This document shows positions 11,308 to 28,020 of a stretch of 64,000 nt of DNA, in pieces (the first letter of the stretch is position 1; each line of letters starts with the position of its first letter). This DNA comes from an uncultured Bacteroidales bacterium. GTDB taxonomy: Bacteria; Bacteroidota; Bacteroidia; Bacteroidales; Bacteroidaceae. The notes beneath the pieces were generated by a model, which saw only the letters and a program-made list of their open reading frames with translations, had not been told where the DNA came from and made no database searches. The translations under genes and the position numbers were made by a program. The DNA is taken from positions 62,001-126,000 of the forward strand of contig CACXKA010000003.1 of assembly GCA_902768125.1 (NCBI GenBank), given 5' to 3'.

Positions 11308-11328
11308 ATTTAGCACATTCTGTGATTT

Positions 11329-11358
11329 AGGCACAAAGTTTCGACTTTGTGCCTTTTT
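11329..11358 (+). terminator. Intrinsic terminator with a TTCG tetraloop
   Basis: An 11-bp perfect stem (arms 11329-11339 and 11344-11354) closed by TTCG is followed by TTTTTG. It ends the transcript of the antitoxin-like pair. Confidence 0.92.
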
Positions 11359-11365
11359 GTTCCTT

Positions 11366-12068: not shown

Positions 12069-12109
12069 TTTGTTGTTAATGATTTCTTCTCTAAAAGGCT
12101 TATATTTCA

Positions 12110-12189
12110 ATAACCAGCCTCTGCTGAATAATAAGCGTTCCTTATTGAGCAATAACCTGCCCTTATTCAGGAATAAGTGCCACTTATTG
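12110..12189 (+). repeat. 80-bp direct repeat, copy B
   Basis: This copy differs from copy A at two positions only (a T/A and a T/C change). It lies 12 bp from the 3' end of the minus-strand 455-aa gene, so like copy A it borders a stop codon. Together the copies bracket 1.24 kb with the antitoxin-like pair and the palindrome cluster. Confidence 0.9.
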
Positions 12190-12201
12190 CGATGAACTTG
12201 G

Positions 12202-13569: not shown

Positions 13570-13599
13570 GATCCTTGGATGAATGCGTGTCCTTTTTTG

Positions 13600-15180
13600 C
13601 TATGCTTTTTGTACTTTACGATATTTCTGATTCTTACTATTAGGCTTATCAGGTTCAGTCATCTCTATATAGCCCATTTTCAACAGAGGCTTTATAAATC
13701 TTGTCAAATGATTGGGATGGTAGCGATAACCTATATGTTCCAAAATCTCTCTGGCACTTCGTGGAATACTACAGAATTGTATAATGTTCTTTTGTTTACC
13801 ATCTAATTTCTTATATGGGATGTAATCAGAAGCATCAATCTCTTCTCTATCATCAACTCTATCATTTGGATTTTTCTCATTATTTACATTCTTATTAATA
13901 TTCAATAAGTTATCCCTGTCATCTCTATCATTATCTCTATCATTTTCATTCACGTTTTCACGTTCGATTCTCACGACGAACTCGTTCAATGTCTCGTCAT
14001 TTATGAACTTGATTCCAGGTGTGAACCGCATGGCTCTGGTAATGCCGCTACCTGCCCCTGTATAAGGCAGCAGATGGATGCCATGATTAAAAAGTAATTT
14101 GTTACGAGGCATAGACACGCCATTCTTAATGCTTTCGGTGTTCACACCCTCTGGCAACAATCCAGGGCTGTGGATCTCAATCCGATTGTCAAAAATGAAA
14201 ACACGAAGAGGTGCCTCAATCACATAGGAACGGTGCAAGATAGAGTTGACCACAATCTCAGACAAAGTGGCAGAGGATATCTCCAACTCTCCCGGACTAT
14301 TAAACTCCTGTTCCACTTGCCTGCGTCGAAGATTTCTTGTCAAGAAAGACATGATGTATTTATAAAGGTGAACAGCATTGCCATCAGCATCGCCATCACT
14401 TTTATCACGAAATTCTGTCCCTCCTATACTGTTGCCCACGAAACTCACACAACGCACAGTAAATGCAGGAAGCCAGCGCTGTGGATACTTACCCATGAGC
14501 ATCAAAGCTGCCAGAGTTAATGTGCCATCAGGGAGTATCAAACCATAATTTTTCAAAAGACCCTCTGGGGTTTGTCCTATCAGGGAGGCAATGACCATAG
14601 GAGATTGATGTTGCAAATCATCAAGAGTCAGTTCCTGTCTCTCAAAATCATTACGGAAGCGCCTTATGAGATAATCTTTGATGGTATTCTCGTCAAGATC
14701 CTCAATACCAGTACCTTTCACAGGAGTACTGTCTGGATGGACTTGCCCGTTCTCTATCAGCATGGCTATCAGTTCTGAATTGTCAAAAACTTTTCGCTTG
14801 TCTGCACCTTGTTTCACCCAGATTATTCCCTTGTTGTCGCGATAGGGCTTGCTCTGACCTTGTTTGATAGTGGCCACCACAATGACGCCACCCTCCATTG
14901 CAACATTCTCGATGTCAATCAAAATGCCCGGAACTACGATATCGTCGGCAAGACTTCCAAGTGTGCTGGTCGTTTCCTGCACTTCTTGAAATGAAAGAGG
15001 ATTGATGCGTCCTGTTTTGTCATCTATCCCAACAATAATCTTCCCTCCGCGAGAATTGCTGAATGCAACCATTTCGCATCCCACATCATATCTGTTATCA
15101 CGGGTGACACGTTCCTTGAACTGCACTTGAGTTTGCTCTGCGGTATCTCGCAGTTTGAGTATATCTTCCGAAGTCATCAT
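13600..15180 (-). CDS. AlbA_2 (Schlafen-like) protein with RecG-type HATPase_c_4 region and winged-helix end
   Basis: From the ATG at 15180 (MMTSEDILKL) the protein has 526 residues. Residues about 17-130 carry the AlbA_2 divergent-AAA signature: VQFKERVT, then MVAFSNSRGGKIIVGIDD and a later IWVKQGADKR. Residues about 290-410 resemble the HATPase_c_4 domain of transcriptional regulator/helicase-like proteins (LSEIVVNSILHRSY, IEIHSPGLLPEGV). The C-terminus (SAREILEHIGYRYHPNHLTRF) looks like a winged helix. A low-complexity Asn/Asp/Arg linker lies between. Members occur in regulatory and phage-defence islands, but their biochemical roles vary. A matching promoter sits just upstream, excluding the longer reading frame that starts at 15285. 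Confidence 0.85.
   Translation of the reverse strand: MMTSEDILKLRDTAEQTQVQFKERVTRDNRYDVGCEMVAFSNSRGGKIIVGIDDKTGRINPLSFQEVQETTSTLGSLADDIVVPGILIDIENVAMEGGVIVVATIKQGQSKPYRDNKGIIWVKQGADKRKVFDNSELIAMLIENGQVHPDSTPVKGTGIEDLDENTIKDYLIRRFRNDFERQELTLDDLQHQSPMVIASLIGQTPEGLLKNYGLILPDGTLTLAALMLMGKYPQRWLPAFTVRCVSFVGNSIGGTEFRDKSDGDADGNAVHLYKYIMSFLTRNLRRRQVEQEFNSPGELEISSATLSEIVVNSILHRSYVIEAPLRVFIFDNRIEIHSPGLLPEGVNTESIKNGVSMPRNKLLFNHGIHLLPYTGAGSGITRAMRFTPGIKFINDETLNEFVVRIERENVNENDRDNDRDDRDNLLNINKNVNNEKNPNDRVDDREEIDASDYIPYKKLDGKQKNIIQFCSIPRSAREILEHIGYRYHPNHLTRFIKPLLKMGYIEMTEPDKPNSKNQKYRKVQKA
13846..13965 (-). repeat. In-frame low-complexity repeat tract within the AlbA_2 gene
   Basis: Imperfect 6-9-base units of ATCTCTATC and ATCATT type encode the ENVNENDRDNDRDDRDN-like linker between the ATPase-like region and the winged-helix end. 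Unit lengths that are multiples of three keep the frame. Length variation between strains would change the linker rather than disrupt the gene. Confidence 0.65.
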
Positions 15181-15196
15181 ATTATTAATTTGAGTA

Positions 15197-15227
15197 CAAA
15201 AGTACATCTTTCTCATCAACCGACAAA
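15197..15227 (-). promoter_or_regulatory. Promoter of the AlbA_2 operon
   Basis: On the minus strand TTTG, 19 bp and TACTTTTG match the consensus fully. It lies 17 bp upstream of the ATG at 15180. Confidence 0.8.
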
Positions 15228-15480
15228 AGAATCGGATGAAAATGTCGTGCGTAGGCGGTGGATTTACTTTTCTTCTTCCCCACATTCCGTATTATTCTAC
15301 GAAAAGCACCACTTTTTTCAATCTGCTTATGCCTTTTTCACTCAGAGTGCTTTTTTTGTCTATCCAACTTGCTTACTTTGCACCGACAAACAAAAAGTTT
15401 CACTTATAATAATAAGTATTATCGATCTTGTCAAAGTTGAAGAAGAGTTGTACAAAGTATTCCACATCATTCTTTCTCCG

Positions 15481-15561
15481 ATGGAGAAGTTAGGTCTCGA
15501 TTCAGTTCAAGATTACATCGACCACATCATCTGCAAGATGAGAGAAGGAGGAGTACTATAA
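15481..15561 (+). CDS. Possible 26-residue small ORF of unknown function
   Basis: MEKLGLDSVQDYIDHIICKMREGGVL is a helical frame ending 30 bp before the small membrane protein gene. The open frame continues upstream with plausible coding character (KVEEELYKVF) but has no ATG, GTG or well-placed TTG, so the true 5' end is unclear. It may be a decayed gene. The remaining 15228-15480 stretch is A/T-rich and holds nothing else I can support. Confidence 0.35.
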   Translation: MEKLGLDSVQDYIDHIICKMREGGVL

Positions 15562-15591
15562 TAAATTGTTTAATTTAAAAACTCAACAATT

Positions 15592-15900
15592 ATGGATATG
15601 GAAGATTATTTGCAAAAGGCTCTTCGCTTAAAGGAAAAGGAAGTCCTTCTTCGAGTGAAGAGGTCAAGAGACATCGCTATGCTAAAGGCAATCAGTAAAT
15701 GGGGTCGAATCATTGGATATGGTGCAGCCCTACCCAGTATTGTTGTCTTGATGCTTATGTGGTTGGCTCCAGAAATATTCACCACCTTGAATCTCCATAT
15801 AGATAGTTCGGGTGTTGTTCTTACACTCATTTTGGGATGTGTAGCCCTCCTTATATCCACAAGAAGTGAACACATTCCAAAAAGAATGCCCCCTTATTGA
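15592..15900 (+). CDS. Small membrane protein (102 aa), unknown function
   Basis: An N-terminal charged amphipathic region (DYLQKALRLKEKEVLLRVKRSRD, residues about 5-27) is followed by two hydrophobic segments at about residues 44-60 and 76-90, separated by a short polar loop. I do not recognise the family. It is the first plausible gene of the plus-strand accessory cluster. A second ATG two codons downstream is an equally possible start. Confidence 0.65.
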   Translation: MDMEDYLQKALRLKEKEVLLRVKRSRDIAMLKAISKWGRIIGYGAALPSIVVLMLMWLAPEIFTTLNLHIDSSGVVLTLILGCVALLISTRSEHIPKRMPPY

Positions 15901-15970
15901 AAAATGTGGAAAGTGAAATAGATTAATTCTCATAAAGTAGCCCGTGTATACAAAAAAAGACTGAAAAAAT

Positions 15971-16001
15971 TTTGTTATGTTCCGAAATCAATCTATATTT
16001 G
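15971..16001 (+). promoter_or_regulatory. Promoter driving the structured RNA / DUF6140 region
   Basis: TTTG, 19 bp and TATATTTG match the consensus fully. The nearest gene start is 287 bp downstream, so the transcript carries a long leader or is a separate RNA. Confidence 0.8.
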
Positions 16002-16007
16002 CAACCA

Positions 16008-16231
16008 GAACGATTAGTCGGGCGGCAAAAAACGTTCGTCTATTGTATGACAGACTGACAAGCTTTGACCTGATTAAATCTGGAAAATTTACTCGAGGAA
16101 GTCAAAATATGTTTAGTCAAGTCAGTTTCGTTCCCTTTGAGGGACACGGACTGCTTTTCTATCATTTGTGACTTCAGGTGTTTTCCAGAACCTAATCAGG
16201 CAAGTGAAGAAATAGTTAGGGCGTGCCCTTT
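16008..16231 (+). ncRNA. Candidate structured non-coding RNA or long structured 5' leader
   Basis: A consensus promoter ends at 16001, and no credible ORF follows until 16288. The segment can fold into nested helices: CCTGATTA at 16069-16076 with TAATCAGG at 16193-16200; CTGGAAAA at 16080-16087 with TTTTCCAG at 16181-16188; GAAGTCA at 16098-16104 with TGACTTC at 16169-16175. Inside lies a long stem from CAGT at 16123-16126 with ACTG at 16150-16153 up to TCCC/GGGA closing a five-base loop (16136-16140). AGGG-CGTG-CCCT followed by TTTT near 16215-16231 is a weak terminator candidate. So it may be a free RNA or an attenuator-like leader of the DUF6140 operon. Helices were found by eye; ends are approximate. 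Confidence 0.6.
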
Positions 16232-16287
16232 TTGTGTTGTATCTATTAACCGTATTAATTAACAATCTAATAAGCACTAACCAGCCT

Positions 16288-16509
16288 ATGCCACGATTTA
16301 AGATCACAACAAAGCAAAGAAAAATGAGTAACGGAGTCCTTATTGAACCAGGATTATCCGTTGAAGTCATCACTCCATCTTATTCCAACCCCATCACGAA
16401 CAACGGTGGTCAAGCCGTAGCAGATGCCTTTATGCGCATCTACGGCTTGGATATCAAGAAAGCAGGCGCACTAAGTACCGTGTGGCTGGATGTGAAACAA
16501 ATAGGATAA
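16288..16509 (+). CDS. DUF6140-like small protein (73 aa)
   Basis: MPRFKITTKQRKMSNGVLIEPG, then VEVITPSYSNPITNNGGQ, DAFMRIYGLDIKKAGAL and the end WLDVKQIG match the pattern I remember for DUF6140, a small Bacteroidales family of unknown function. The start at 16288 fits the family N-terminus; a longer frame from 16234 adds an unrelated hydrophobic stretch. It is 39 bp upstream of the zinc-ribbon/TPR gene, with which such genes seem to associate (from memory, not checked). A broken second copy of its last codons lies at 18184-18225. Confidence 0.7.
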   Translation: MPRFKITTKQRKMSNGVLIEPGLSVEVITPSYSNPITNNGGQAVADAFMRIYGLDIKKAGALSTVWLDVKQIG

Positions 16510-16548
16510 AAAAATGGAATGTTTAACTAACTAAAATAATTGTAAATT

Positions 16549-18162
16549 ATGATACAGAGATGTCCTAATTGCGGTCAATGGTGCGAAGCAGGGAAAGATG
16601 GTTTTCTCGCACGAGCAAATCGCGGATTTGAAAATGTACTCTTTTCTGGCTACAAAATAACAGACAAACTCTTTGGGAACACATTAGGTGTAAAGTCGAA
16701 AGCCGTGGTGGGTGGAGCCGCCTCAGGAGCAATGGGTTTACCATATCTCAACGCCATGAAAGAATCCTTTTTGGGAGATGCTTACAAGTTCCAATGTCCC
16801 GAATGTGGTTACGAATGGGGGTCAGACGATGAAGAGGAAGATCAAACTGCAGAATATGAATATGAACAACAGCACGAACAAGATGTTATAGATCTGCGTG
16901 AACAAAGTCTTCATCTCACGAATTACTCCGATGATGAAGTAAGCCGCTTTGAGGAGCATCTATGGTCTGTTATAACAGATGATGACACTGATGGCTATAA
17001 AGCTTCCGCATATGATTACTTGGCTTATGTAAAATATAGGAATGGTGACAAAAATGGTGCTTTAGATGCTATCAATAAATCCATTCAACTATATGATTCT
17101 CCTGATGCGCATGCAACAAAAGGGGTTATTATGGAAGAAGGACGTACAGCCTTTGACAAATACAAATCCCTTCAGGAACTTGTCAAATATAAGGAAGACG
17201 ATGGAATACCTTATTGGGCATCAGAACAACAGATGGATCGCATCATGGATGAACGTAGTGTTGCATACGCCGAGGATTTCCTGAAAATTCCATACAGACA
17301 GCGTAAGTTCATCATTATATCAGACAAGGATTTTGTAATGCTTCCAGACAACTTAAAGGTAGTGCCAGACAAATATCTACCATCAGAGATGTTGTTCCCT
17401 GAAGGGCATCCTGTTGTGGGGGAGGTATATATCTGCCATCCGTACAAAGAGAACTTTTATCTACCTCTTGAAACATATCAGATTGAATTATTCCGAGATG
17501 AGATGAGAGAGCTTAGAAGGATTTTGCAATGTTATTGGGCTAAAAGTATAGAGATTAAAGACAATAACAGTGTAGAGGAGAATGAAGCTGGCACAAGAAA
17601 TATGGCTGGTCACGTGAATGGTGAATATAAAAGTGTAGGAGGAAGTGTTGGTGGTTCTAATTCCAAAGAATACGAAAAATATCAAAAAGAAATAAATGAT
17701 TGCTTTGTGGGGCAAGAATTCAAACAAATGAAAGAAAGGCCTCATATACCAAATGATGTGGTATGGTATCCACATCGTGCTTCATGGCAAGATTTGATAA
17801 AGCAATTGGATAAAGGCAATCTCTCTTCACATAATATTACTGTAAACACGTCGGATAGTTCCCAAATATCTTCCAGAGAAGGTTCTTCCCTCGAAGTTGA
17901 GGTGAACGCATTAGTTGCAGCTGGAGGTGTCGGAGGCAATTATGATACTTCTACAATGTTTAAATCTGAGACCAACAAAAGTTGGACTTTGAAAGTGGAG
18001 TTTTATCCGTATGAAGAAGAAAGCCAAGTAGTACCTGCAGCTCCAACTCAGCTACTCAGTAATCAGCAAATGGGAACTCCCAACAAATTAAAGTACCTCA
18101 TCTATGGATTGATTGCCTTAGTTGTATTATTGGGAATCATCATTGCATTGTTAATAATTTGA
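16549..18162 (+). CDS. Tail-anchored split zinc-ribbon/TPR-like protein, unknown function
   Basis: This 537-residue protein has a split zinc ribbon: CPNCGQWC at residues 5-12 and CPECGYEW at 83-90, with a roughly 70-residue insert containing a glycine/alanine-rich segment (VVGGAASGAMGLP). An acidic stretch (DDEEEDQTAEYEYEQQ) follows, then a TPR-like pair (YDYLAYVKYRNGDKNGALDA). The middle is globular, residues about 450-490 are serine/glycine-rich, and a C-terminal membrane helix (residues about 515-537) has almost nothing after it, typical of tail-anchored proteins. The bulk would face the cytoplasm. I recall similar Bacteroidales proteins, always uncharacterised. It lies between the DUF6140-like gene and EcsC. 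Confidence 0.75.
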   Translation: MIQRCPNCGQWCEAGKDGFLARANRGFENVLFSGYKITDKLFGNTLGVKSKAVVGGAASGAMGLPYLNAMKESFLGDAYKFQCPECGYEWGSDDEEEDQTAEYEYEQQHEQDVIDLREQSLHLTNYSDDEVSRFEEHLWSVITDDDTDGYKASAYDYLAYVKYRNGDKNGALDAINKSIQLYDSPDAHATKGVIMEEGRTAFDKYKSLQELVKYKEDDGIPYWASEQQMDRIMDERSVAYAEDFLKIPYRQRKFIIISDKDFVMLPDNLKVVPDKYLPSEMLFPEGHPVVGEVYICHPYKENFYLPLETYQIELFRDEMRELRRILQCYWAKSIEIKDNNSVEENEAGTRNMAGHVNGEYKSVGGSVGGSNSKEYEKYQKEINDCFVGQEFKQMKERPHIPNDVVWYPHRASWQDLIKQLDKGNLSSHNITVNTSDSSQISSREGSSLEVEVNALVAAGGVGGNYDTSTMFKSETNKSWTLKVEFYPYEEESQVVPAAPTQLLSNQQMGTPNKLKYLIYGLIALVVLLGIIIALLII

Positions 18163-18183
18163 GTACCATATTTATAATAATAG

Positions 18184-18225
18184 GTTCACTATGCTATAGT
18201 GTGTTTGGATGTGAAACAAATATAA
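18184..18225 (+). pseudogene. 3' remnant of a second DUF6140-like gene
   Basis: The 17 bases TGGATGTGAAACAAATA are identical to the 3' end of the gene at 16288-16509, and the frame reads VCLDVKQI followed by a stop, against VWLDVKQIG. Nothing recognisable of the family remains upstream. A small hairpin (CACTAT-GCT-ATAGTG) lies inside the remnant. Confidence 0.6.
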
Positions 18226-18238
18226 AAAGACAAAAGTT

Positions 18239-18508
18239 ATGAAGTTTAAACACGAAAATATCAGAAACAAAATACAATTCTTTTTTTCTCAATTAAGAAA
18301 TAACGGATTCCCAATAACACATATTGATGAGTTTCAGTTTTGTCAAGTCATTTCCGACCAAAAAAAACATGGAAGATTCTCTTTCCACAAAAGTGGAACA
18401 ATTGTTCAAATTAGTGATACTAAAACAAATCAAATGTTAGAACTTGACAACAATGAGTTGACAAATATTGTATTAATAGGCTTTACTGATTTTATCAGCA
18501 AGCGATAA
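18239..18508 (+). CDS. Uncharacterised 89-aa protein
   Basis: A basic N-terminus (MKFKHENIRNKIQFFF) is followed by what looks like a small alpha+beta domain, including GRFSFHKSGTIVQISDT, LELDNNELTNIV and a hydrophobic C-terminal helix. I do not recognise the family. The start ATG follows the DUF6140 remnant by 13 bp. The A/T-rich composition matches the rest of the island. Confidence 0.6.
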   Translation: MKFKHENIRNKIQFFFSQLRNNGFPITHIDEFQFCQVISDQKKHGRFSFHKSGTIVQISDTKTNQMLELDNNELTNIVLIGFTDFISKR

Positions 18509-18540
18509 ATAACAGAACACTCTTAAATTAAGTTTCTTAT

Positions 18541-18708
18541 ATAGATTTTTCAAAGATAGGCTGTGCCGGTATTTTAATAATCGGTGACATTATAGGTATT
18601 TTATATGGATTCCTTGAAGGGGGATTAAGCCATAATTGGATTCCATGGATTATAATTTCTCGGATAATTGTATGGCCTTTGATTATATGGCGGTTTGGTC
18701 GAAAATGA
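18541..18708 (+). pseudogene. Start-less membrane-protein fragment (about 55 codons)
   Basis: The frame reads IDFSKIGCAGILIIGDIIG and continues with a hydrophobic, tryptophan-rich sequence ending in WPLIIWRFGRK and a stop. It is clearly membrane-like, but the frame is closed by a TAA just upstream without any ATG, GTG or TTG start. It is probably the 3' half of a small membrane protein whose 5' end was lost, or it uses a non-standard start. Confidence 0.4.
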
Positions 18709-18767
18709 TGACGCATTAAAAATAAATTACTCACTTTAATATAAAAATCTAAGACTGTTTTACAATT

Positions 18768-19598
18768 ATGACTAATAAAATGAACCCGTATGAAAAGAAT
18801 GAATATACGGAAATAATCAAATGGGAGAATGAACCTCCTAGTGTTGTTTCACAAACCATTAATTTTGTGATGAAACCTGTTACGTGGCTTGTTGGCAAGG
18901 TAATACCTCATAAAGCTATCCAAGGTGCATTGATAGCCTCAAACTATTTGGCGGAATTAGCTACAGATTCCAATGATATTAAACGTGATGGAGAAGTAAA
19001 CAAAATAGAAGATCTGCGCCATAAAGATCTCAAATTGTCCGACAAGTTAGCAAATGAAGTGCATAATTGGGCTAATTTGATTGCCTCTGTGGAAGGAGCA
19101 GCAACGGGATCTGCAGGATTAACAGGATTGATAATAGATGTCCCGTCATTAATAACTATGAGTTTAAGAGTTATACACAAAATTGGCCTGTGTTACGGTT
19201 ACGAGTGTCATACGGAAGAAGATAAGATGTTCGTTTATGGTATTATGTCGGCAGCTGGAGCAAATACTGTCGAAGAGAAAACCATATCAGTTGCGACACT
19301 TCAGACTATGAAAGTTTGTATTGCAAAGAACACGTGGAAGAAAATTACAGAAAAAGCCTCCACGAATAAATATGGAGTGGAAGTTGCTATACTTACAATT
19401 AAAAACTTGGCCAAACGACTCGGTATCAATATAACAAAAAGAAAGGCTCTGCAAGCTATACCTATAATAGGATCAGGTGTTGGAGCTGCAATGAATTTGG
19501 CATTTATCAATGATATTGCATGGGCTGCTCGTCGTTCCTATCAAAGGAGGTGGCTAGAAGATAATGATAAAATAGTAGTAAATTCAAAAGCAAATTGA
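18768..19598 (+). CDS. EcsC-family protein
   Basis: The 276-residue protein shows EcsC-family features: a helical N-terminal part, a glycine/alanine-rich hydrophobic centre (IASVEGAATGSAGLTGLIIDVPSL, about residues 104-127) and a C-terminal IPIIGSGVGAAMNLAFINDIAWAARRSYQRRW segment. EcsC was named after the third gene of the Bacillus ecs operon, but its activity is unknown. Related proteins often appear in accessory islands. The hydrophobic segments suggest membrane association. A second Met four codons in could also be the start. It is followed after 84 bp by the proteasome-like gene on the same strand. Confidence 0.82.
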   Translation: MTNKMNPYEKNEYTEIIKWENEPPSVVSQTINFVMKPVTWLVGKVIPHKAIQGALIASNYLAELATDSNDIKRDGEVNKIEDLRHKDLKLSDKLANEVHNWANLIASVEGAATGSAGLTGLIIDVPSLITMSLRVIHKIGLCYGYECHTEEDKMFVYGIMSAAGANTVEEKTISVATLQTMKVCIAKNTWKKITEKASTNKYGVEVAILTIKNLAKRLGINITKRKALQAIPIIGSGVGAAMNLAFINDIAWAARRSYQRRWLEDNDKIVVNSKAN

Positions 19599-19682
19599 AG
19601 ACAAGAAGGTCTTTCAAGAAAGCCATTTCAAGAATGCATCAAACAATGCTTAAGAGTAATTCAACTATACATTTGTAAAAAA

Positions 19683-20975
19683 ATGACAGCAATAGTAGGA
19701 ATATTAAATAAAAGAGCTGCTGTAATGGCTGCTGACAGTGCCGTAACTGTTACAAAAGGCGAAAAAACAAAAATCTATAATACGGCAACGAAGATTTTTC
19801 GTCTTTCTTTGAAGCATCCTATAGGGGTGATGATTTTCAGTTCTGTGGAATTTATGGGAACTCCTTGGGATGTCATATTTAAGCTTTATCGAGACCATAG
19901 AGGTGACCAAAGTTTCAACACATTGAAAGAATATGCACAAAACTTTGTGGACTTTCTTAATGCTGAGAACTATTTCAGTAGTGTGAACAGTCAAAAAGGA
20001 TATTTCATTAATGAATTATCTAATTTCTATTATACAATCAAAAATGACGTTCTAGAGCAATATCAGAAAGAAACTGAAGAAATGAGTGAGGAAGAAGCTG
20101 AGAATATAGATAGTGAAGAACGAATCCATTCTATATTGGAAGCATCGCTAAAGGGTGTAAAAGAGATGTATGAAGGTGAAAACATCAATCCTGAGTTCGA
20201 TGATTATTCATTAAATAATCTCCAATCTTATGGTCATCAGGAATTTGACGAACTTATGGCATTGTGTGAAGAAGAACAAATGCCAACTGATATGCGAGAG
20301 CTATGGGAAAGTAGTTTTCACGCATATATATGTTCAACACATTATTATGAAGGAACAGGTATTGTTTTTGTGGGGTATGGAAGTAAAGATATATACCCGT
20401 CTCTTATACCCATCTACATATCTGGTGCCTTTGACCATCGCTTACGATACCATTTCGATGAAGAGTCTGCTGATAGTATTACCAATGACAACCGTGCCTC
20501 TATCAATCCTTTTGCACAAACGGATGTGATGTTAACTTTGATGAGGGGTATTGCCCCCAATTTCTATGAAATGGAGATGGGAAGCCTTACACATTCACTA
20601 ATGACTGCTAAACAAAAGATGATGGATGCCATGAAGGAAGCAGGGGCGACTGAGGAGATGTTGAAGAAGATAGAGGAGGTGAATTTGGAAGACATACAGG
20701 AGCAACATGAGGAGGTGGTGAAGAAATACATTTCCGAGGAATATGTTGAGGGAATAATTGATGCTGTTGATTCTTTCAGCGTTGATGACATGGCTAATAT
20801 GGCTGAAAGCCTTATTTCCGTAACGAATCTACAACGACATCTTACATCATCAGATGAATCTGTGGGAGGTCCCATTGATGTGGCTGTTATTACCCGCTCA
20901 GAAGGTTTCATCTGGATAAAACACAAAGAATGGTTCAAACAAGAATTGAATCCTCATACACAAGTTTACGAATAA
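19683..20975 (+). CDS. Large proteasome-beta/HslV-like Ntn hydrolase (430 aa)
   Basis: The N-terminus MTAIVGILNKRAAVMAADSAVTV matches the start of self-activating proteasome-type Ntn hydrolases. Removal of Met would expose Thr1, the proteasomal Asp17 equivalent falls exactly at position 17 of the mature chain (AADS), and a Lys equivalent to Lys33 sits at 36 (TKIFRLS). HPIGVMIFSS then matches the next strand. An acidic helical insert of about 170 residues follows. Sheet-like sequence resumes with GTGIVFVGYGSKDIYPSLIPIYISG, and the chain ends with GGPIDVAVITRSEGFIWIK. Typical proteasome beta and HslV chains are 170-230 residues. No ATPase partner of HslU or ARC type is visible nearby. It could be a peptidase acting on island proteins. 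Fold assignment rests on motif reading alone. Confidence 0.75.
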   Translation: MTAIVGILNKRAAVMAADSAVTVTKGEKTKIYNTATKIFRLSLKHPIGVMIFSSVEFMGTPWDVIFKLYRDHRGDQSFNTLKEYAQNFVDFLNAENYFSSVNSQKGYFINELSNFYYTIKNDVLEQYQKETEEMSEEEAENIDSEERIHSILEASLKGVKEMYEGENINPEFDDYSLNNLQSYGHQEFDELMALCEEEQMPTDMRELWESSFHAYICSTHYYEGTGIVFVGYGSKDIYPSLIPIYISGAFDHRLRYHFDEESADSITNDNRASINPFAQTDVMLTLMRGIAPNFYEMEMGSLTHSLMTAKQKMMDAMKEAGATEEMLKKIEEVNLEDIQEQHEEVVKKYISEEYVEGIIDAVDSFSVDDMANMAESLISVTNLQRHLTSSDESVGGPIDVAVITRSEGFIWIKHKEWFKQELNPHTQVYE

Positions 20976-21004
20976 AGATTTACATATTTGGAGAATCACA
21001 ATTC

Positions 21005-21517
21005 ATGTTTACTTACATATCAAACTCCTCTCACTACAAAGAAGTGCTTTCACGCGTTTCTGGTGTGAAGCATTCTTTGTGGATTGGCACGGCTGACATC
21101 AAGGACTTATACATAGATGAAGGAGGGCAGAAGAAGCCTTTTCTAGCCTTGTTGGCAAAATTGATTCGGCAGGGTGTGGAAGTGAGGTTGATTCATGCAA
21201 AAGAACCTGGACAGAACTTTCGTGAGGATTTTGACAAATATCCTGTTCTGTACGATGGTTTGGAACGAGTTCTCTGTCCACGAGTCCATTTCAAGATGAT
21301 TGTCTTCGATTGCAAGGAAGTGTATATTGGTAGTGCCAACTTGACTGGTGCAGGTATCGGCATGAAAGCTGATGGGACACGAAACTTTGAGGCAGGCATC
21401 TTGACGGATGATCCCCAAATCGTGGAGCAAGCCATGAACCAATTCGACGATGTCTGGATAGGCAAACAATGCAAGAAATGCAAGCGAAGAGATTTCTGTA
21501 CGGACCCCATCGTATAA
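21005..21517 (+). CDS. PLD-like protein with a single HKD motif and C-terminal cysteines
   Basis: From the ATG at 21005 (MFTYISNSSHYKEV) the protein has 170 residues. The phospholipase-D motif HxKxxxxD is complete (His95, Lys97, Asp102), followed by the family's IGSANLTGAGIG (Ser110, Asn112) and Glu129. Single-HKD proteins act as dimers; members include nucleases (Nuc, BfiI, defence-associated PLDs) and phosphodiesterases. The C-terminal CKKCKRRDFC could bind zinc. The upstream gap from the proteasome-like gene is 29 bp, so they are very likely co-transcribed. A nucleic-acid substrate is plausible but unproven. Confidence 0.85.
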   Translation: MFTYISNSSHYKEVLSRVSGVKHSLWIGTADIKDLYIDEGGQKKPFLALLAKLIRQGVEVRLIHAKEPGQNFREDFDKYPVLYDGLERVLCPRVHFKMIVFDCKEVYIGSANLTGAGIGMKADGTRNFEAGILTDDPQIVEQAMNQFDDVWIGKQCKKCKRRDFCTDPIV

Positions 21518-21542
21518 CATGTAAACCTTAGGCAAGCACTAC

Positions 21543-21600
21543 CCAAGTATTACCCAAGCTCACCCAAGCTGTTTGACCTTGGCTAATGCTTGGGTAGGGT
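21543..21600. repeat. Short CCCAAG tandem and inverted repeat at the island's right edge
   Basis: ACCCAAG occurs three times at about 10-11-base spacing (TACCCAAGT, TACCCAAGC, CACCCAAGC) and once inverted as GCTTGGGTA. It lies between the PLD gene and the terminator at the boundary to conserved genes. An attachment or recombination site is possible; no duplicate was found at the left edge. Confidence 0.55.
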
Positions 21601-21637
21601 ATGGGAAGAGTGAGAGAAGGGTGAGGCTAAACAATAA

Positions 21638-21671
21638 GGAGAGGCTCCGAGTGGAAGCCTCTCCTTTTCTT
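21638..21671. terminator. Intrinsic terminator between the island and the GH51 gene
   Basis: GGAGAGGCT at 21638-21646 pairs perfectly with 21656-21664, followed on the plus strand by TTTTCTT. It serves the PLD transcript and probably also the convergent GH51 gene, whose stop is 4 bp away. Confidence 0.88.
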
Positions 21672-21674
21672 ATA

Positions 21675-24146
21675 TTATTTTTTGAGGTGGACGATATTGA
21701 GGGAATAGGGGGGAATGTCCAGGGGAACACAGTTGGAGTGGGGGGATAGCAGTTGTTCGATGGGGGAGATGTGAGTGGGGGATTGGAGGGTGTTCTCGTC
21801 CATGCCGTCGTTGGCTTGGAGACGGATGACACGGGCGCCTGTTGCCTCGAAATTCTTCAGGTTGATGTGGGCGGTGGTGCCTTCGTCACCATTGTTCACA
21901 ATCTTCACGATCATCTCGCCTGCCTGGTCGTCGATGGTGGCAGAGGAGAAGATGCCTTTGGTGTCGTCGAGCTTGAGCACGGTGTCGAACACCAGTTCCT
22001 GATCGAGCCAAGCTTTCACGCTATCACCTGCCACAGTCAGTTTCACATCGTACCAACGACCTTCTTCCACTCGTCCGCGTTTGGTGACGGTCTCGAGTTT
22101 GCCGCCGCTGGTGATTTGCTCGATGGCGTGCTGTGTGTTGCCCCAGCCACCGATGTTCAGCCAACAGTAGTTTTTCTCATCGACGTAGTTGAACACGATG
22201 ATGAAACCTTCGGGACCTCGGTCCTTGCGAGCACGGCACTGGATGGTGTAGTGGTCGGAGTCGATGATTTGGTTGCATATCGCCAGCGGACCTTCTTCGC
22301 GTGCCTTATGCTGCAAAATGCCATCGTTGACTTCCCAATGACCGCTGACAAACTCGGGCTTTCCAGCCTTGGGCAGAGGTTCGCAATGGGTGTAGCTGGC
22401 TTGTGTGCCCCAGGAGGAATAACCCACGCGGCTGTGGCTGGGCGTGATGGATTTGGGCATCTGTGCTTCGTAGGGGTTGTCTTGCTCCACTTTCACCACT
22501 TGCTTGCCCACGTTCTGAGCCATCAGCATTTGCACGTAGTAGGAGGGGGTGCCCATCACTCGGCTGGAGTTGAAGCGTATCATGTCGGGACGCCACTTGG
22601 CATCGTTCTCATTCACGAAGATGGGCGCATAGCTGTTGAGGGGAACGATGTCGCTGTTGTTCTCCATACCCATCATATAGACTGCCTCGCCCAATGCTGC
22701 GTTCTGGTTGCCTAAGTTGCCGAATCCGTTGGTCACGGCATACTCGCCTACATAGATTTTGGGAGCGGGCTTGCCGTTGGGCAGCGTTCTGGGATAGGTG
22801 TCGTATTTGTGGAAGTTGTCGGCAAACCAGTTCGGGGTGCGGTAGTAGTGCTCGTCGAGCAAATCCACTTCCAGGTTGCTGCGCCACTTCGGATTGTCGT
22901 CGCCCCATGCCACCACGTTTCCGATGAGCTTGACATTGGGATATTTGGCACGGATGGCTTTGCGGAACTGGTCATAGCGTTCGTAATAGTGGTCACTCTG
23001 CTGTCGTGGGTCGGGCTGGTTGTTCTCGTTGCCGATTTCGAGATATTCGATGTTGAAGGGTGCAGGATGCCCGTTCTTGGCACGCAGGGCTCCGTACTTC
23101 GTGGTCACATCACCATTGGCATATTCCAACGCATTCAGGCACTCATCAATCCAAGGTTGTATGGAATCCACAGGTGTCATACCTCCATGCCACAAACCCA
23201 CGTTCACCACATAGAGCGGCTTGGCACCCAAGTCTTCTGCCAGTTGCAGGTACTCGTGGAAACCCAGACCGTCGGTGGTGCGATAACCCCAGTTCACGTT
23301 CCAGTGTCCTTCACGTTCCTCGATGGGTCCGATGGTGCGTTCCCAACGGAAAGCATTGTCGGGCGAGTCCTGACCCTCCACGAAGCAGCCGCCGGGGAAG
23401 CGCATGAACTTGGGATGCATCTGCCACAGCATGTTGGCAAGGTCGGGACGCATGCCGTTCTCACGGTTCTTGAAGGTTGGCGGGAAGAGCGACACCACAT
23501 CGAGGTCAATCGTTCCCACACCGTCGAAAACCAAAGCGAACTGTGCCTTGGCGTCGTTACCTTCCGACTGGAGCACTGCCTCGTATTTCTTCCAGCCTTT
23601 TGCCTTGGGGTCAAGTGAGATTTCCACCTGAGCCAGTTTCTCGTCACCCGCTTCGTTGCGCAGCATTGCCTGCACCGTGCCTTGGTATTTCGGAGCCTTT
23701 GCCCAGAAAGAGAGACGGTAGGTGCGCCCTTGCACGGCATTGATGCCCCAGAAGCCCCTGTTCACCAGAAACACGGGGTCTTGCATCGTGGCTTTGATGG
23801 TCAACTCCAAAGCGTTGTGCTGCACGCTGTTCAGTAGGGGCGTGTTCTTGGAGGGCTGTATGAGCCGGGCCTTGATGATTCCTGCTTCGGTGGCCTCTGT
23901 GGTCCATCCTTGCATATCGGCAGGAGCACCGAACCTGGGTCCGTCCTCAAACGAACGGTTACGGATGAGTTCCGCATAGATGCCTCCATCGGCAGCATGG
24001 TTGATGTCCTCATAGAAGATGCCGTAGTGTGTCGGACTGATTGCTGGTCCTCGTTGCTGCGCATCGATGTTGATGTTGACCTGTGCATGGGTCCATGCAG
24101 CTCCCGCCATCATGGCGATAGTTAGTAAAATGGGTTTCATGTTCAT
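21675..24146 (-). CDS. Secreted alpha-L-arabinofuranosidase, GH51
   Basis: The enzyme releases terminal arabinofuranose from arabinoxylan or arabinan. A signal peptide (residues 1-21, cleaved near THA-QV) is followed by NINIDAQQRGPAISPTHYGIFYEDIN, the GH51 start. A carbohydrate-binding-like segment follows. The catalytic (beta/alpha)8 barrel has acid/base Glu in YLEIGNENNQ and nucleophile Glu in KIYVGEYAV, and a further glycan-binding-like module (KDRGPEGFIIVFNYVDEKNY) sits before the C-terminal beta domain. The length of 823 residues exceeds cytoplasmic GH51 (about 500) because of these modules. It is not linked to a SusC/D pair here. It is convergent with the accessory island. Confidence 0.93.
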   Translation of the reverse strand: MNMKPILLTIAMMAGAAWTHAQVNINIDAQQRGPAISPTHYGIFYEDINHAADGGIYAELIRNRSFEDGPRFGAPADMQGWTTEATEAGIIKARLIQPSKNTPLLNSVQHNALELTIKATMQDPVFLVNRGFWGINAVQGRTYRLSFWAKAPKYQGTVQAMLRNEAGDEKLAQVEISLDPKAKGWKKYEAVLQSEGNDAKAQFALVFDGVGTIDLDVVSLFPPTFKNRENGMRPDLANMLWQMHPKFMRFPGGCFVEGQDSPDNAFRWERTIGPIEEREGHWNVNWGYRTTDGLGFHEYLQLAEDLGAKPLYVVNVGLWHGGMTPVDSIQPWIDECLNALEYANGDVTTKYGALRAKNGHPAPFNIEYLEIGNENNQPDPRQQSDHYYERYDQFRKAIRAKYPNVKLIGNVVAWGDDNPKWRSNLEVDLLDEHYYRTPNWFADNFHKYDTYPRTLPNGKPAPKIYVGEYAVTNGFGNLGNQNAALGEAVYMMGMENNSDIVPLNSYAPIFVNENDAKWRPDMIRFNSSRVMGTPSYYVQMLMAQNVGKQVVKVEQDNPYEAQMPKSITPSHSRVGYSSWGTQASYTHCEPLPKAGKPEFVSGHWEVNDGILQHKAREEGPLAICNQIIDSDHYTIQCRARKDRGPEGFIIVFNYVDEKNYCWLNIGGWGNTQHAIEQITSGGKLETVTKRGRVEEGRWYDVKLTVAGDSVKAWLDQELVFDTVLKLDDTKGIFSSATIDDQAGEMIVKIVNNGDEGTTAHINLKNFEATGARVIRLQANDGMDENTLQSPTHISPIEQLLSPHSNCVPLDIPPYSLNIVHLKK

Positions 24147-24171
24147 TGTTTTGTTTGTTAGTTAGTTAAAG

Positions 24172-24199
24172 AGAGGGTGCGTCAACCGACACACCCTCT
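24172..24199 (-). terminator. Terminator of rpsP
   Basis: On the minus strand AGAGGGTG pairs with CACCCTCT, extended by GTC/GAC around a GGTT loop with one mismatch. A short T-containing tract CTTTAACT follows. Confidence 0.65.
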
Positions 24200-24231
24200 T
24201 AGGTAGATTTGTTACATAAGATGCTGGAAGA

Positions 24232-24792
24232 TTATGCTTCTGCAGGTGCTTCAGCAGCTTCTGCTGCGGGAGCCTCAACTTCTGCGGGAGCTTCTTCAAC
24301 TGGAGCCTCTGCCTCTGCCTGAGCGGCAAGAGCGGCAGCCTTCTTCTCAGCAATCTTAGCTGCGAGAGCCTCATTGGCTTTCTTCTCAGCAGCCAGACGT
24401 GCCTTCTTCTCGGCAGCCTTGTCAGCTGCGTCCTTGTCAGCAGCCTTCTGCTCCTTAGCTTCCTTCTCTTTCTTCCAAGCCTCGAACTTGGCTTCTGCAG
24501 CAGCCTCGTCGAAGGCACCCTTCTTCACACCACCGAGGAGGTGCTTCTTCAGGTAAACGCCTTCCTTAGAAAGGATGTTGCGAACGGTGTCAGTAGGCTG
24601 AGCACCAACGAGCACCCAATGAAGGGCACGCTCAAAGTTCAAATCAATTGTTGCAGGGTTGGTGTTTGGGTTGTAAGTACCAACCTTCTCGATGAAGCGA
24701 CCATCACGTGGTGCCTGTGCATTAGCAATCACGATGCTGTAGAAAGCGTAGTTCTTGCGACCGTGACGCTGCAAACGAATTCTTGTTGCCAT
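24232..24792 (-). CDS. rpsP: 30S ribosomal protein S16 with a long alanine/glutamate-rich tail
   Basis: The first about 80 residues are S16 ([52 protein letters not shown]). S16 is a core 30S assembly protein. The total of 186 residues is about twice the usual 80-90. Residues 95-186 form a charged, then acidic [15 protein letters not shown]-type tail, a known Bacteroidota feature. It is transcribed alone from a -7 box at 24878-24885, through a leader with two tandem hairpins. Confidence 0.96.
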
Positions 24793-24826
24793 TTTGCAAT
24801 AAAAATGTTTAATTATTAATGATTAT

Positions 24827-24873
24827 GTCGCCAACTCGTGACGACGTGAACTCTGTCACTAACTCGTAATGAC
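24827..24873 (-). promoter_or_regulatory. Tandem hairpins in the rpsP 5' leader, possible autoregulatory element
   Basis: Two 19-base units at 24855-24873 and 24827-24845 (minus strand GTCATTACGAGTTAGTGAC and GTCGTCACGAGTTGGCGAC) fold into seven-base-pair hairpins with the same CGAGT loop. The four differences between them are two compensatory pair changes (A-T to G-C and T-A to C-G), so pairing is conserved while sequence is not. They begin about where transcription from the -7 box should start. Binding by S16 or another r-protein is a natural hypothesis. Confidence 0.7.
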
Positions 24874-24877
24874 GGTG

Positions 24878-24885
24878 CAAAGTTA
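24878..24885 (-). promoter_or_regulatory. -7 element of rpsP
   Basis: TAACTTTG on the minus strand; the upstream TTTG lies 24 bp away, longer than optimal. The first hairpin starts five bases downstream. Confidence 0.6.
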
Positions 24886-25071
24886 CGGCTTTTTTCTTTC
24901 ATTTTCCGTCAAAAAGCAAAAACTTTTCACTTTTTCATGTGATTTTTGTGTTTTTCCTTTATTGGTAGGATTAAATTTAGTACTTTTGCCATGTTAAGTT
25001 GTAATCTCTACTTTGCATTTTGCTACTATATGTTGGCAAGTATCTGTCATAATTATAGTCATGCAGTTATT

Positions 25072-25506
25072 ATGAAAGAGACAATAGAGCATCAGGGAGT
25101 GATTGAATCAGTGGAAGGACGTCATGTGAGGGTGAACATTCTTCAGGTGGCGGCGTGTAGTGGCTGCAAGGCTCGTTCGCTGTGCTCGTCCAGCGAGAGC
25201 AAGGAGAAAATCATTGATGTGTATGAGGATGATGCTGCGATGACTTATCGAGTGGGGGAGCAAGTGAAGGTGTGTGGCGCCCTGAGCATGGGCAAGCTGG
25301 CAGTGCGACTGGCATTTGGTGTGCCAGTGGTGCTGATCGTGGTGTGGATGCTGGTGGCGATGGTGTGGCTGAAGTGGGGCGAACTGACGTCGGTGGGTGT
25401 GCTGGCGTTGATTCTGGCGGCTTACTTTTACATATTATATATTAATAGGGAAAGAATGGCAAGGGACTTTGCCTTCTGGATAGAGAAACAATCAAAAACA
25501 AACTAA
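25072..25506 (+). CDS. RseC/SoxR-reducing-system-like protein heading the Rnf operon
   Basis: From the ATG at 25072 (MKETIEHQGVIES) the protein has 144 residues. It has an N-terminal soluble part with the Cys motif AACSGCKARSLC and two transmembrane helices (about residues 77-100 and 105-124), the RseC layout. RseC-like genes often head rnf operons in Bacteroidota and may help deliver electrons or assemble the complex, though the molecular role is unknown. The next gene, rnfB, starts 10 bp downstream. A TACTTTTG -7 box at 24981-24988 is the likely promoter, with a weak -33 box. Confidence 0.88.
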   Translation: MKETIEHQGVIESVEGRHVRVNILQVAACSGCKARSLCSSSESKEKIIDVYEDDAAMTYRVGEQVKVCGALSMGKLAVRLAFGVPVVLIVVWMLVAMVWLKWGELTSVGVLALILAAYFYILYINRERMARDFAFWIEKQSKTN

Positions 25507-25516
25507 ATAACATTTT

Positions 25517-26650
25517 ATGGATATTCAAGTGATTCTAATTGCTGTGGCGGCTTTGGCAATCTTGGGCTTCGTGCTTGCATTGTTGCTGTTTGTGGTGTCA
25601 AAGCGGTTTGCAGTGAAGGAAGATCCCCGATTGGGTCAGGTGCTTGAAGCGTTGCCCGGTGCGAACTGTGGCGGATGTGGCTTTCCAGGTTGTGGCGGTA
25701 TGGCTGCTGCTTGTGTGAAGGCTGCCGATGAAGGTTCGCTGGAAGGACTGAACTGTCCTGTGGGTGGTGCTGACTGCATGGGACAGATTGCGGGTATCTT
25801 GGGCATGGAAGTGGCTGCGGCAACTCCCAAGCTGGCGATCGTGCGATGCAACGGTACGTGTGAGAAACGTCCTCATGTGCGTGAGTACGACGGCGTGATG
25901 AGTTGCCGTGTGGCAAACACCACTTGTATGGGTGAGACTCAGTGCTCTTACGGCTGTCTCGGTTGTGGCGACTGTGTGGCTGCCTGTCAGTTTGATGCAC
26001 TCCACATGAACAAGGAGACGGGTCTTCCTGAGGTGGATGCCGAAAAGTGTACTGCCTGTGGTGCTTGTCAGAAGGCTTGTCCTCGTGGCATCATGGAGGT
26101 GCGCAACGTGAGTGGTGAGAACAAGGATGCCTTTGTGGTGACTTGCATGAACATGGACAAGGGTGCTGAGGCGATGAAGATTTGTGCCAGCTCTTGTATT
26201 GCCTGCAAGAAGTGCCAGAACGCTTGTGGCAGCGATGCCGTGCATGTGGGCAACAACGTGGCTTACATCAATCCTGAGGCTTGTGTGCTTTGTGGTGCTT
26301 GCTTCGAGGCTTGTCCTCGTGGTGCCATCGCTTCTGTCAGCATCAAGGGTGTGGAACGCAGGGACACGCACAATGCGATTCCTGGTGCTGCCAAACCTGC
26401 TGCCAAGGCTGCCCTCGCTGGTGCGCCTGAGAAGCAGGCTGCTCCTGCTGCGCCTGCCAAGCCAGCCAAGGAGTGGAAACCTATCGAAATCAAGTATGAC
26501 GCTCCGCTCATGCCGAGTCAGCAGATTCTCCTTGCAGGTCCAAAGGACATCAGCAATCCTGCGCCTGCAGCCAAAGATGTTAAATTCGAAGATAAGCGCA
26601 CTGACGCTCCACTTCCACCAAGCCAGTTGATTCTGCTTGGCCTTAAATAG
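25517..26650 (+). CDS. rnfB: Rnf complex subunit B, polyferredoxin with extended tail
   Basis: RnfB passes electrons from ferredoxin into the membrane-bound Rnf complex. A membrane anchor (residues 4-26) is followed by the Fe-S motif ANCGGCGFPGC and four CxxCxxC-type ferredoxin clusters (CLGCGDCVAAC, CTACGACQKAC, CIACKKCQNAC, CVLCGACFEAC), ending near residue 275. The last 100 residues are an alanine/proline/lysine-rich linker with two copies of a motif, DAPLMPSQQILLAG and DAPLPPSQLILLG. Such motifs could dock a partner. rnfC begins 11 bp downstream. Confidence 0.95.
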   Translation: MDIQVILIAVAALAILGFVLALLLFVVSKRFAVKEDPRLGQVLEALPGANCGGCGFPGCGGMAAACVKAADEGSLEGLNCPVGGADCMGQIAGILGMEVAAATPKLAIVRCNGTCEKRPHVREYDGVMSCRVANTTCMGETQCSYGCLGCGDCVAACQFDALHMNKETGLPEVDAEKCTACGACQKACPRGIMEVRNVSGENKDAFVVTCMNMDKGAEAMKICASSCIACKKCQNACGSDAVHVGNNVAYINPEACVLCGACFEACPRGAIASVSIKGVERRDTHNAIPGAAKPAAKAALAGAPEKQAAPAAPAKPAKEWKPIEIKYDAPLMPSQQILLAGPKDISNPAPAAKDVKFEDKRTDAPLPPSQLILLGLK

Positions 26651-26661
26651 TAAATGAGCTT

Positions 26662-28020
26662 ATGAAAACATTTAGAATAGGTGGTGTTCATCCAGCGGAG
26701 AACAAACTCTCTGCTGCTGAACCAATCAAGGTGGCGGAATTGCCTCAGGTGGCTGTGTTCCCGATGGGACAGCACATTGGTGCTCCTGCGCTTCCTTGTG
26801 TGCAGAAAGGTGACAAGGTGAAGGTCGGAACGCAGATTGGAACGCCGATGGAGAAGGCGCTCTCCACGTCTATCTTCTCTTCTGTCAGCGGTACTGTATT
26901 GAAAGTTGACACAGTGGTGGATGCCAGCGGCTACAAGAAGCCTGCTGTGTACATCACGGTGGAGGGTGATGAATGGGAAGAGGGCATTGACCGCAGCGAT
27001 AAGCTGGTCACGTTGGCTGACAAGCCAGAACTGACGCCTGAAGCCATCATCGAGAAAGTGAAGAACGCGGGTATCGTTGGTATGGGTGGTGCTTGTTTCC
27101 CCACCCATGTGAAGTTGATGCCTCCTCCTCAGTTCAAGCCCGAATGGGTGATCATCAACGCAGTGGAGTGTGAGCCTTACCTCACTGCCGATCATCGTCT
27201 GATGCTCGAAAAGGCAGACGAGGTGCTGGTGGGTGTGGAACTGCTCATGAAGGCTGCCAAAGTGACGAAGGGCTTCATCGGCATCGAGGAGAACAAGCCT
27301 GATGCCATCAAGCTGATGACGGAGAAATGTGCTGCCCAGCATCCCAATATCGAGGTCGTTCCCCTGAAGACGAAATATCCACAGGGTGGTGAGAAACAGT
27401 TGATTGATGCCGTTGTGCGTCGTCAGGTTCCTGCTCCTCCTGCCTTGCCTGTATCCGTTGGAGCAATCATTCAGAACGTGGGTACTGCTTTTGCTGTGTA
27501 TGAGGCAGTTATGAAGAACAAACCACTCTTCGAACGTATCGTAACCGTGACGGGTAAAGGTCTCCAGAAGCCCAGCAACTTCCTCACTCGTATGGGTACG
27601 CCCATGAGCCAGTTGATTGAGGCTTGTGGCGGTCTGCCAGAGGGTGATGTGAAGGTGATTGGTGGTGGTCCGATGATGGGTAAGGCACTCGTGAATACAG
27701 AGGTGCCTATCTGCAAAGGCTCGTCGGGTGTGCTCATCATGAGTGGCGACGATGTGCGTCGTGGTGAACCAGAACCCTGTATCCGTTGTGGCAAGTGTGT
27801 GAGTGCCTGCCCAATGGGTCTTGAACCTTATCTCCTCGCCACTTGCTCAGGCAAGAAGATGTGGGACAAGGTGGAGGCAGAGGATGTCACCAGCTGTATC
27901 GAGTGTGGCTCGTGCCAGTTCACTTGTCCGTCGAAGCGTCCGCTGCTCGACCTCATCCGCATGGGTAAAACAACTGTAATGACTAATATTCGCGCCCGTC
28001 AGATGGCTGCAAAAAAATAG
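26662..28020 (+). CDS. rnfC: Rnf complex subunit C, NADH/Fe-S subunit
   Basis: RnfC contacts NAD(H) at the cytoplasmic face. KNAGIVGMGGACFPTHVKL (residues about 131-150) is the glycine-rich FMN/NADH-binding loop, and VECEPYLTADHRLM follows. Two 4Fe-4S motifs lie near the C-terminus (CIRCGKCVSACPMGLEP, then CIECGSCQFTCPSKRP). The length of 452 residues is usual for Bacteroidota. The stop is followed directly by the first 139-bp repeat. Confidence 0.96.
   Translation: MKTFRIGGVHPAENKLSAAEPIKVAELPQVAVFPMGQHIGAPALPCVQKGDKVKVGTQIGTPMEKALSTSIFSSVSGTVLKVDTVVDASGYKKPAVYITVEGDEWEEGIDRSDKLVTLADKPELTPEAIIEKVKNAGIVGMGGACFPTHVKLMPPPQFKPEWVIINAVECEPYLTADHRLMLEKADEVLVGVELLMKAAKVTKGFIGIEENKPDAIKLMTEKCAAQHPNIEVVPLKTKYPQGGEKQLIDAVVRRQVPAPPALPVSVGAIIQNVGTAFAVYEAVMKNKPLFERIVTVTGKGLQKPSNFLTRMGTPMSQLIEACGGLPEGDVKVIGGGPMMGKALVNTEVPICKGSSGVLIMSGDDVRRGEPEPCIRCGKCVSACPMGLEPYLLATCSGKKMWDKVEAEDVTSCIECGSCQFTCPSKRPLLDLIRMGKTTVMTNIRARQMAAKK

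Follow-up and report, generated by a model that had tools for sequence, protein, structure and literature searches.

The gene analyzed here (hereafter P) lies on a 64,000-nucleotide stretch of DNA from an uncultured Bacteroidales bacterium (hereafter the window, to which coordinates refer unless another locus is named) and, judged by its sequence and its predicted structure, its product is an N-terminal-threonine Ntn hydrolase of the proteasome-like superfamily. We consider it somewhat probable that P and a tiny gene found close to its stop codon at most homologous loci (hereafter T) form a mobile two-gene anti-phage, or superinfection-exclusion, cassette built on a threonine enzyme that probably does not work as a ring, where both the defense role and the mechanism are what we infer. 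Under this proposal, P would be the enzyme of a compact mobile cassette with a tiny, mostly basic partner, carried as cargo by prophages, phage satellites, plasmids, and genomic islands, and most likely protecting the lysogen or host from competing phages. The enzyme would need no unfoldase, and a closed ring is improbable given the location of its two helical inserts, at places that serve in proteasome subunits for packing or for lining the pore; these divergent acidic inserts would recognize T and, directly or via T, a phage product, and upon infection P would cleave or covalently modify a specific target, which would stop phage production.

The open reading frame of P spans 430 codons on the + strand (19683–20975) and starts with Met-Thr. 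Its landmarks and two neighboring genes are as follows.

19683–20975, + strand: proteasome-like Ntn hydrolase gene (P), 430 aa, PHROG 5990 and probable PMI-4 (phrog_5990, E = 2.5e-93; AlphaFold2; Foldseek)
19686–19688, + strand: Thr2 codon, predicted N-terminal nucleophile once Met is removed (Thr in 46/47 homologs, Ser in 1/47)
19734–19736, + strand: Asp18 codon, equal to proteasome Asp17 (47/47 aligned homologs)
19791–19793, + strand: Lys37 codon, equivalent of proteasome Lys33 (47/47; HMM alignment)
19965–20348, + strand: helical acidic insert 1, about residues 95–222, after H1/H2 (model helices, low conservation, charge)
20550–20777, + strand: helical acidic insert 2, about residues 290–365, between H3 and H4 (model, low conservation, charge)
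20856–20882, + strand: C-terminal core motif E-[ST]-V-G-G-P-x-D-V, residues 392–400 (matches proteasome beta SGGxIDVAVI; profile match to Thermoplasma beta, E = 2.4e-4)
18768–19598, + strand: EcsC-family protein, island neighbor (PF12787, E = 1.5e-44)
21005–21517, + strand: PLD-like protein, likeliest start at 21005 in a frame that opens at 20930 (PF13091, E = 4.1e-14 for the frame from 20930)

A proteasome-type Ntn fold had been proposed in a first-pass annotation made from the sequence alone, and structure prediction followed by a fold search upholds it. The AlphaFold2 model of the window protein, built on an alignment of 47 homologs (A2), reaches a mean pLDDT of 91.7 and a pTM of 0.87, and all 12 of its Foldseek matches in the PDB at E ≤ 0.001 are proteasome subunits (probability 1.00), the best 50 rows being proteasome or Anbu chains. 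TM-scores normalized to the target were 0.38–0.60 with high rmsd in these PDB rows, as is expected because the query carries two long insertions. In BFVD, the top match (E = 9.5e-7) is to a phage protein with the name proteasome beta type-2, and the model of a second-clade member (L060, predicted as a read-through chain with its T) likewise retrieves proteasomes. When the window protein was compared with PDB sequences by phmmer up to E = 10, only three archaeal proteasome beta sequences appeared (E = 0.75–0.81); with the A2 profile, these three score E = 2.4e-4 to 2.8e-4, in a match of two parts, one at the N-terminus around the catalytic Thr and Lys, the other at the C-terminal motif GGPxDVAVI.

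The fold assignment rests on these Foldseek matches together with the catalytic residues. Homologs in which Thr2 or Asp18 is not conserved had been named beforehand as evidence that would speak against an Ntn hydrolase; Thr2 is kept in 46 of 47 aligned homologs, the remaining one having Ser, and of 80 viral loci, 79 have Thr and one has Ser at residue 2. Asp18, at mature position 17 and in register after the Met-Thr start as had been claimed, is invariant (47/47), and so is the lysine noted at mature position 36 (Lys37, 47/47), whose column HMMER aligns with Lys33, in the sequence “KLF”, of the Thermoplasma beta subunit. In the 20S proteasome, Ser169 supports the active site. The corresponding column is Val in all 47 P homologs, and the Gly47 position, mapped by eye, is Gly in 29 of the 47 and Ser in the window protein; because Ser169 is replaced and Gly47 is not strictly Gly, peptidase activity is not assured, and we call P a predicted Thr-nucleophile Ntn hydrolase, not a proven peptidase. 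In this regard, the archaeal protein ligase connectase, a proteasome-fold enzyme with a helical insertion as is P, indicates that this fold can ligate instead of cleave and can work as a monomer, according to the accessible text of Fuchs, Alva and Lupas 2021 (PMC8665760).

Proteasome beta subunits and HslV thus share with P the fold, the N-terminal Thr, Asp17, Lys33, and a C-terminal SGGxIDVAVI-like motif, whereas P is about twice as long, carries two acidic helical inserts, has Val at the Ser169 column, has no HslU or ring partner seen nearby, and is horizontally mobile. The earlier remark that no unfoldase is adjacent agrees with what was found, as none is encoded by the six neighboring frames scanned; in the own genome (89.66% complete), no protein matched PF00227 and the HslU model remained below cut-off. 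PF00227 did not match the window protein either, which had no usable match in Pfam, NCBIfam, or PADLOC; eight of the 47 homologs match PF00227 at E ≤ 0.1 (best 8.6e-4). The family in question is not new, however, since P belongs to PHROG 5990 and fits a published orphan family, so that the claim of a new kind of proteasome relative has to be given up. Indeed, residues 1–425 of the window protein match positions 1–422 of the 427 of the phrog_5990 profile (E = 2.5e-93), and PHROG 5990, listed in PHROGs v4 with unknown function and with no partner given there, was the best family for all six P members scanned, near full length in five and over residues 1–311 in one. As far as its accessible text goes, PMC8665760 describes 22 orphan proteasome-like families, among which PMI-3 and PMI-4 (Proteasome homolog with Multiple Insertions 4, reference HDY66466.1) are the subfamilies named as carrying insertions at two places, after H1/H2 and between H3/H4; PMI-4 is listed there for Bacteroidetes, Firmicutes, Proteobacteria, and phages, and the listing of PMI-3 lacks Bacteroidetes, Firmicutes, and phages. 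P resembles PMI-4 as presented in that text in having both insertions, conserved catalytic residues, and no propeptide, its model placing helical residues at about 95–222 after H1/H2 and about 290–365 between H3/H4, and, on this architecture and distribution, P is probably PMI-4. The lack of an insertion between S3 and S4 sets P apart from PMI-5, PMI-6, and connectase: in the model, S3 (residues 21–25) and S4 (28–32) are joined by a short turn, while connectase, in the same text, has its insertion between S3 and S4 and is without H1/H2, which P possesses.

As to what fills the extra length of P, the annotation had described one acidic helical insert of about 170 residues; its acidic and helical character stands, its being single does not, the model giving two inserts of about 128 and 76 residues. 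Net charge is −23 in insert 1 and −11 in insert 2 of the window protein, and is negative in 47/47 and 44/47 homologs, respectively. Both inserts appear, from the A2 alignment, to diverge fast: the mean frequency of the top residue is 0.24 in insert 1 and 0.27 in insert 2, against 0.67 for residues 1–60 and 0.76 for residues 389–425. PMC8665760 notes that the assembly of rings or double rings could be impeded by a long insertion at either place, after H1/H2 or between H3/H4. One A2 homolog also matches the Pfam family NNH1 (NACHT N-terminal helical domain 1; E = 1.4e-5), a similarity that, given the helical inserts of the P family, could be either genuine or an artefact of helices.

P is sparsely and unevenly distributed. 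Counting the own genome each time, it was matched in 6 of the 251 own-family genomes and in 7 of the 395 phylum-set genomes, one phylum match (G449) covering a C-terminal stretch only, as well as in 10 of 72,556 plasmid records and 13 of 50,697 phage records; IMG/VR supplied 174 loci, of which 80 were kept, and, in E. coli, a DNA search sensitive down to about 65–70% identity only found 80% or more of the query in 9 of 5,426 genomes. Such figures bear on the idea that P is a housekeeping-type proteostasis peptidase (compare the suggestion of an uncapped 20S for BPH) that became mobile by chance. The proteasome fold with its triad and an own genome with neither HslV nor HslU above cut-off are what such a role would lead one to expect, but P is present in about 2% of sampled genomes and its copies decay, two of the six with a match in the own-family set having an internal stop and others (L002, L003) being remnants, and we regard this as very unlikely. 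In the two remnants (6001–6903 of L002 and L003), the first ~75 residues of P are left, followed by an unrelated 210-aa frame, making them N-terminal remnants from cargo replacement or decay. A different arrangement is seen in L007 (G083:C392, 796–2698), where a partial copy (query residues 226–414) lies directly upstream of a full copy, as tandem duplicates.

It is the surroundings of the P homologs that are informative, with T, cargo sites in prophages and satellites, and islands holding defense genes. As for T, an ATG frame of 34–95 codons whose start lies between −35 and +25 bases of the P stop is present at 52 of 58 dereplicated loci (48 viral ones, dereplicated at 85% P identity, and 10 hand-added from satellites, plasmids, and Bacteroidota, with the window, L001, and the short contig L007 left out), against 7.5 ± 2.2 loci, and at most 13, in 100 dinucleotide shuffles of the downstream DNA. 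The six loci without T by this rule are L035, L038, L046, L090, L119, and L121; a T frame is found in L038 and L090 under looser start rules, and by eye T-like frames lie somewhat further downstream in L119 and L121. Among 15 T pairs at identities of 0.55–0.97, Ka/Ks had a computable value in 12, two of these being the same sequence pair, and ranged from 0.06 to 0.31, which identifies T as a real gene under purifying selection. The proteins average 56 residues, 32 of 37 are net positive, and T is probably largely disordered. The AlphaFold2 read-through chain of P and T, modeled to dock T on P, left T largely unplaced, with a helix at a pLDDT of about 60 and most of its other residues under 40. 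No one motif was found to run through every T protein; the motif EM score exceeded those of four shuffled sets at both widths, driven by the clades with ELREWQKxFNP and xKDFF, and motifs such as these occur in clades only. T divergence tracks that of the P inserts (r = 0.80, reached by 0 of 999 permutations) and almost as closely that of the P core (r = 0.71), as shared ancestry would give.

A tiny, mostly basic partner that overlaps or closely follows a larger enzyme, diverges along with it, and shares its mobile distribution is also what one would see if P and T were an addiction module of the toxin–antitoxin type, with T restraining P or serving as a short-lived antidote and the pair stabilizing its element. 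Since T comes after P, and since the window copy has no T when a free toxin without its antidote is unexpected, we give this possibility little credence. As a matter of fact, neither the window nor L007 has a frame fitting the T rule 3′ of P (L001 passes it with a frame that we think spurious), and in the window the next start codon after P, where most homologs have T, belongs to the PLD gene (21005). The window copy, a complete enzyme with no T adjoining, might function by itself or with a partner encoded elsewhere, or might be degenerating.

From the perspective of the elements that carry it, P occupies varied positions. It lies directly after a gene annotated “putative transcription regulator” in the four Streptococcus satellite phages inspected, three of which have T alone after P, the fourth having further genes including a RelB/RelE pair; it is the last gene of Streptococcus prophage Javan85, after a peptidoglycan hydrolase; it is inverted beside lysis genes in a Stenotrophomonas phage, precedes the holin in a Providencia phage, and is found among head and neck genes in a Porphyromonas phage. 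Neighbors of this kind (lysis, packaging, or regulatory genes in phages and satellites, including the regulator gene just upstream in all four satellites) would suit a P that serves the life cycle of its element, by degrading or processing a phage, satellite, or host protein such as a repressor, a lysis factor, or a packaging factor so as to time induction or aid spread, with T as adaptor or inhibitor. However, P is also present on plasmids and in Bacteroidota islands, its position differs among phages, it matches only 13 of the 50,697 phage records, and the E. coli prophage copy inspected, between the antiterminator Q and a methylase/tRNA/holin region, is opposite to the late genes and has its own leader, all of which makes a life-cycle role unlikely in our view.

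The E. coli site is what best supports a defense-type role of the P–T pair, by guilt by association. Among 10 E. coli loci with common flanking DNA (L107, L108, L109, and L126–L132, hand-picked for variety), eight have in common a ~65-bp leader upstream of the cargo start codon, behind which seven types of cargo were found:

P plus T, in an E. coli prophage
a pair of 87/88-aa and 247-aa proteins, at two E. coli loci
a 237-aa protein, in an E. coli prophage
a pair of 313-aa and 149-aa proteins, in an E. coli prophage
a KAP NTPase (PADLOC PDC-S20, E = 9.4e-177)
a DUF6731 protein with a 147-aa protein, in an E. coli prophage
a TIR-TM protein (PADLOC, E = 1.7e-57)

The ninth locus has no intact cargo gene annotated at the site, and the tenth, from K-12, has a porin in the region. 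Five of the seven leader cargo types, P plus T included, had no strong PADLOC match (and the window protein matched none of the families of PADLOC-DB 2.0.0 at E ≤ 1), which together with the K-12 porin implies that this site is not only for defense. The other four cargo types without a strong match (313 + 149 aa, 87/88 + 247 aa, 237 aa, and DUF6731 + 147 aa) may be unrecognized defense cassettes. All seven cargo types, which are unrelated to one another, run opposite to the phage late genes. Among known prophage- or satellite-borne anti-phage systems, BstA and Tai resemble P in traveling as cargo of one or few genes, and are described as other proteins.

In Bacteroidota islands, the defense association of P is suggestive only, since eight control regions from the same contigs also hold defense-type genes (a CBASS SAVED-HNH, a type I methylase, and PDC-S04). 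The PADLOC scan covered 8 of 10 regions (L117–L123 and L125, with L124 and L007 left out) and gave strong neighbors of P at at least four of the eight loci: AbiEi, AbiEii, and a type IIG restriction enzyme in L117, PDC-S60-type proteins in L118 and L122, and type I restriction in L121. At E ≤ 1e-15, 167 PADLOC families were matched among 72 neighbors versus 45 among 90 control proteins; these being counts of models, with one strong group in the neighbor matches listed, GajB, representing a UvrD-type helicase, and with controls that are not defense-free, we set this enrichment aside as a test.

A different neighborhood is found on rhizobial plasmids, where multiubiquitin-domain and ThiF E1 genes are found a few genes away from P in three Rhizobium records and in a divergent Mesorhizobium locus (L022, L023, L026, and L133 altogether, P being interrupted in L026), the Rhizobium loci also having DUF6527-type and ClpP-like genes. 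On this ground, P could be pictured as supplying the peptidase or ligase activity for ubiquitin-like conjugation in bacteria, acting on multiubiquitin-tagged proteins in rhizobia and doing related work elsewhere. Yet the Rhizobium loci are of one synteny and the cases amount to about two independent ones, the Rhizobium operon has a ClpP-like gene of its own, and the stretches inspected from phages, satellites, Enterococcus, Pantoea, and Ruegeria have no annotated gene of this kind, so that such a function seems to us most improbable. A mobile anti-phage cassette remains our preferred reading, of which a fuller form, put forward tentatively and as a possibility, would make P and T an unrecognized anti-phage class on the proteasome fold, unfoldase-free and non-ring, in which a co-evolving basic micro-protein T would be a docking peptide, a trigger, or a conjugation substrate, spread by prophages, satellites, and plasmids and having a ubiquitin-like link in rhizobia.

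If the P family itself is already known, the partner T, the mobile, leader-associated cargo site, and the rhizobial multiubiquitin/E1 neighbors look new, being absent from the literature searched. According to PMC8665760, its authors found for their new proteasome homologs no genomic context or co-occurrence pattern pointing to function, and what its accessible text says of PMI-4 includes neither a partner such as T, nor a leader-sharing cargo site, nor a defense-type context. No proteasome homolog in anti-phage defense appeared among the literature matches listed, a set that includes the accessible parts of PMC13022661, PMC11364771, and PMC10367356 and has preprints and most subscription journals outside it. 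As far as that text shows, the 22 proteasome-like families came in 2021 with few functional clues (PMC8665760); T, a defense-type cargo site, and natural copies in E. coli, the easiest host, would give one of them an experimental handle. Were the defense role true, P and T would be, as far as the literature searched shows, the first immune system on a proteasome-fold enzyme, and one in which this enzyme works with a tiny partner in place of an AAA+ unfoldase.

Back in the window, the claim of an accessory island holds, P lying in a low-GC stretch (31.7–45.2% in the 1-kb blocks from 11000 to 21000, versus 46.7–56.6% in the other blocks of 8000–28000). The arrangement of P with EcsC and PLD genes, suggested earlier to be new, did not recur and is not supported as meaningful: as candidate partners of P, neither had a tblastn match (E ≤ 0.01) in any of 145 other loci, among them the control regions, and both are chance neighbors, outside the system as far as homologs indicate. 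Upstream in the same island, positions 16549–18162 encode a protein of 537 aa, rich in Cys at its N-terminus and with a hydrophobic segment at its C-terminal end, for which no confident family was found, only a weak TPR match. Elsewhere in Bacteroidota, P adjoins in two genomes a gene (L119, 6431–6904; L120, 6860–7330) that resembles smpB in its sequence and whose side may be a preferred insertion place for P. On the left side of the window island, the − strand frame at 13600–15285 encodes a protein with SLFN/AlbA_2, ATPase-like, and Fic-like C-terminal domains, a weak relative of which is found in L122 (E = 1e-8).
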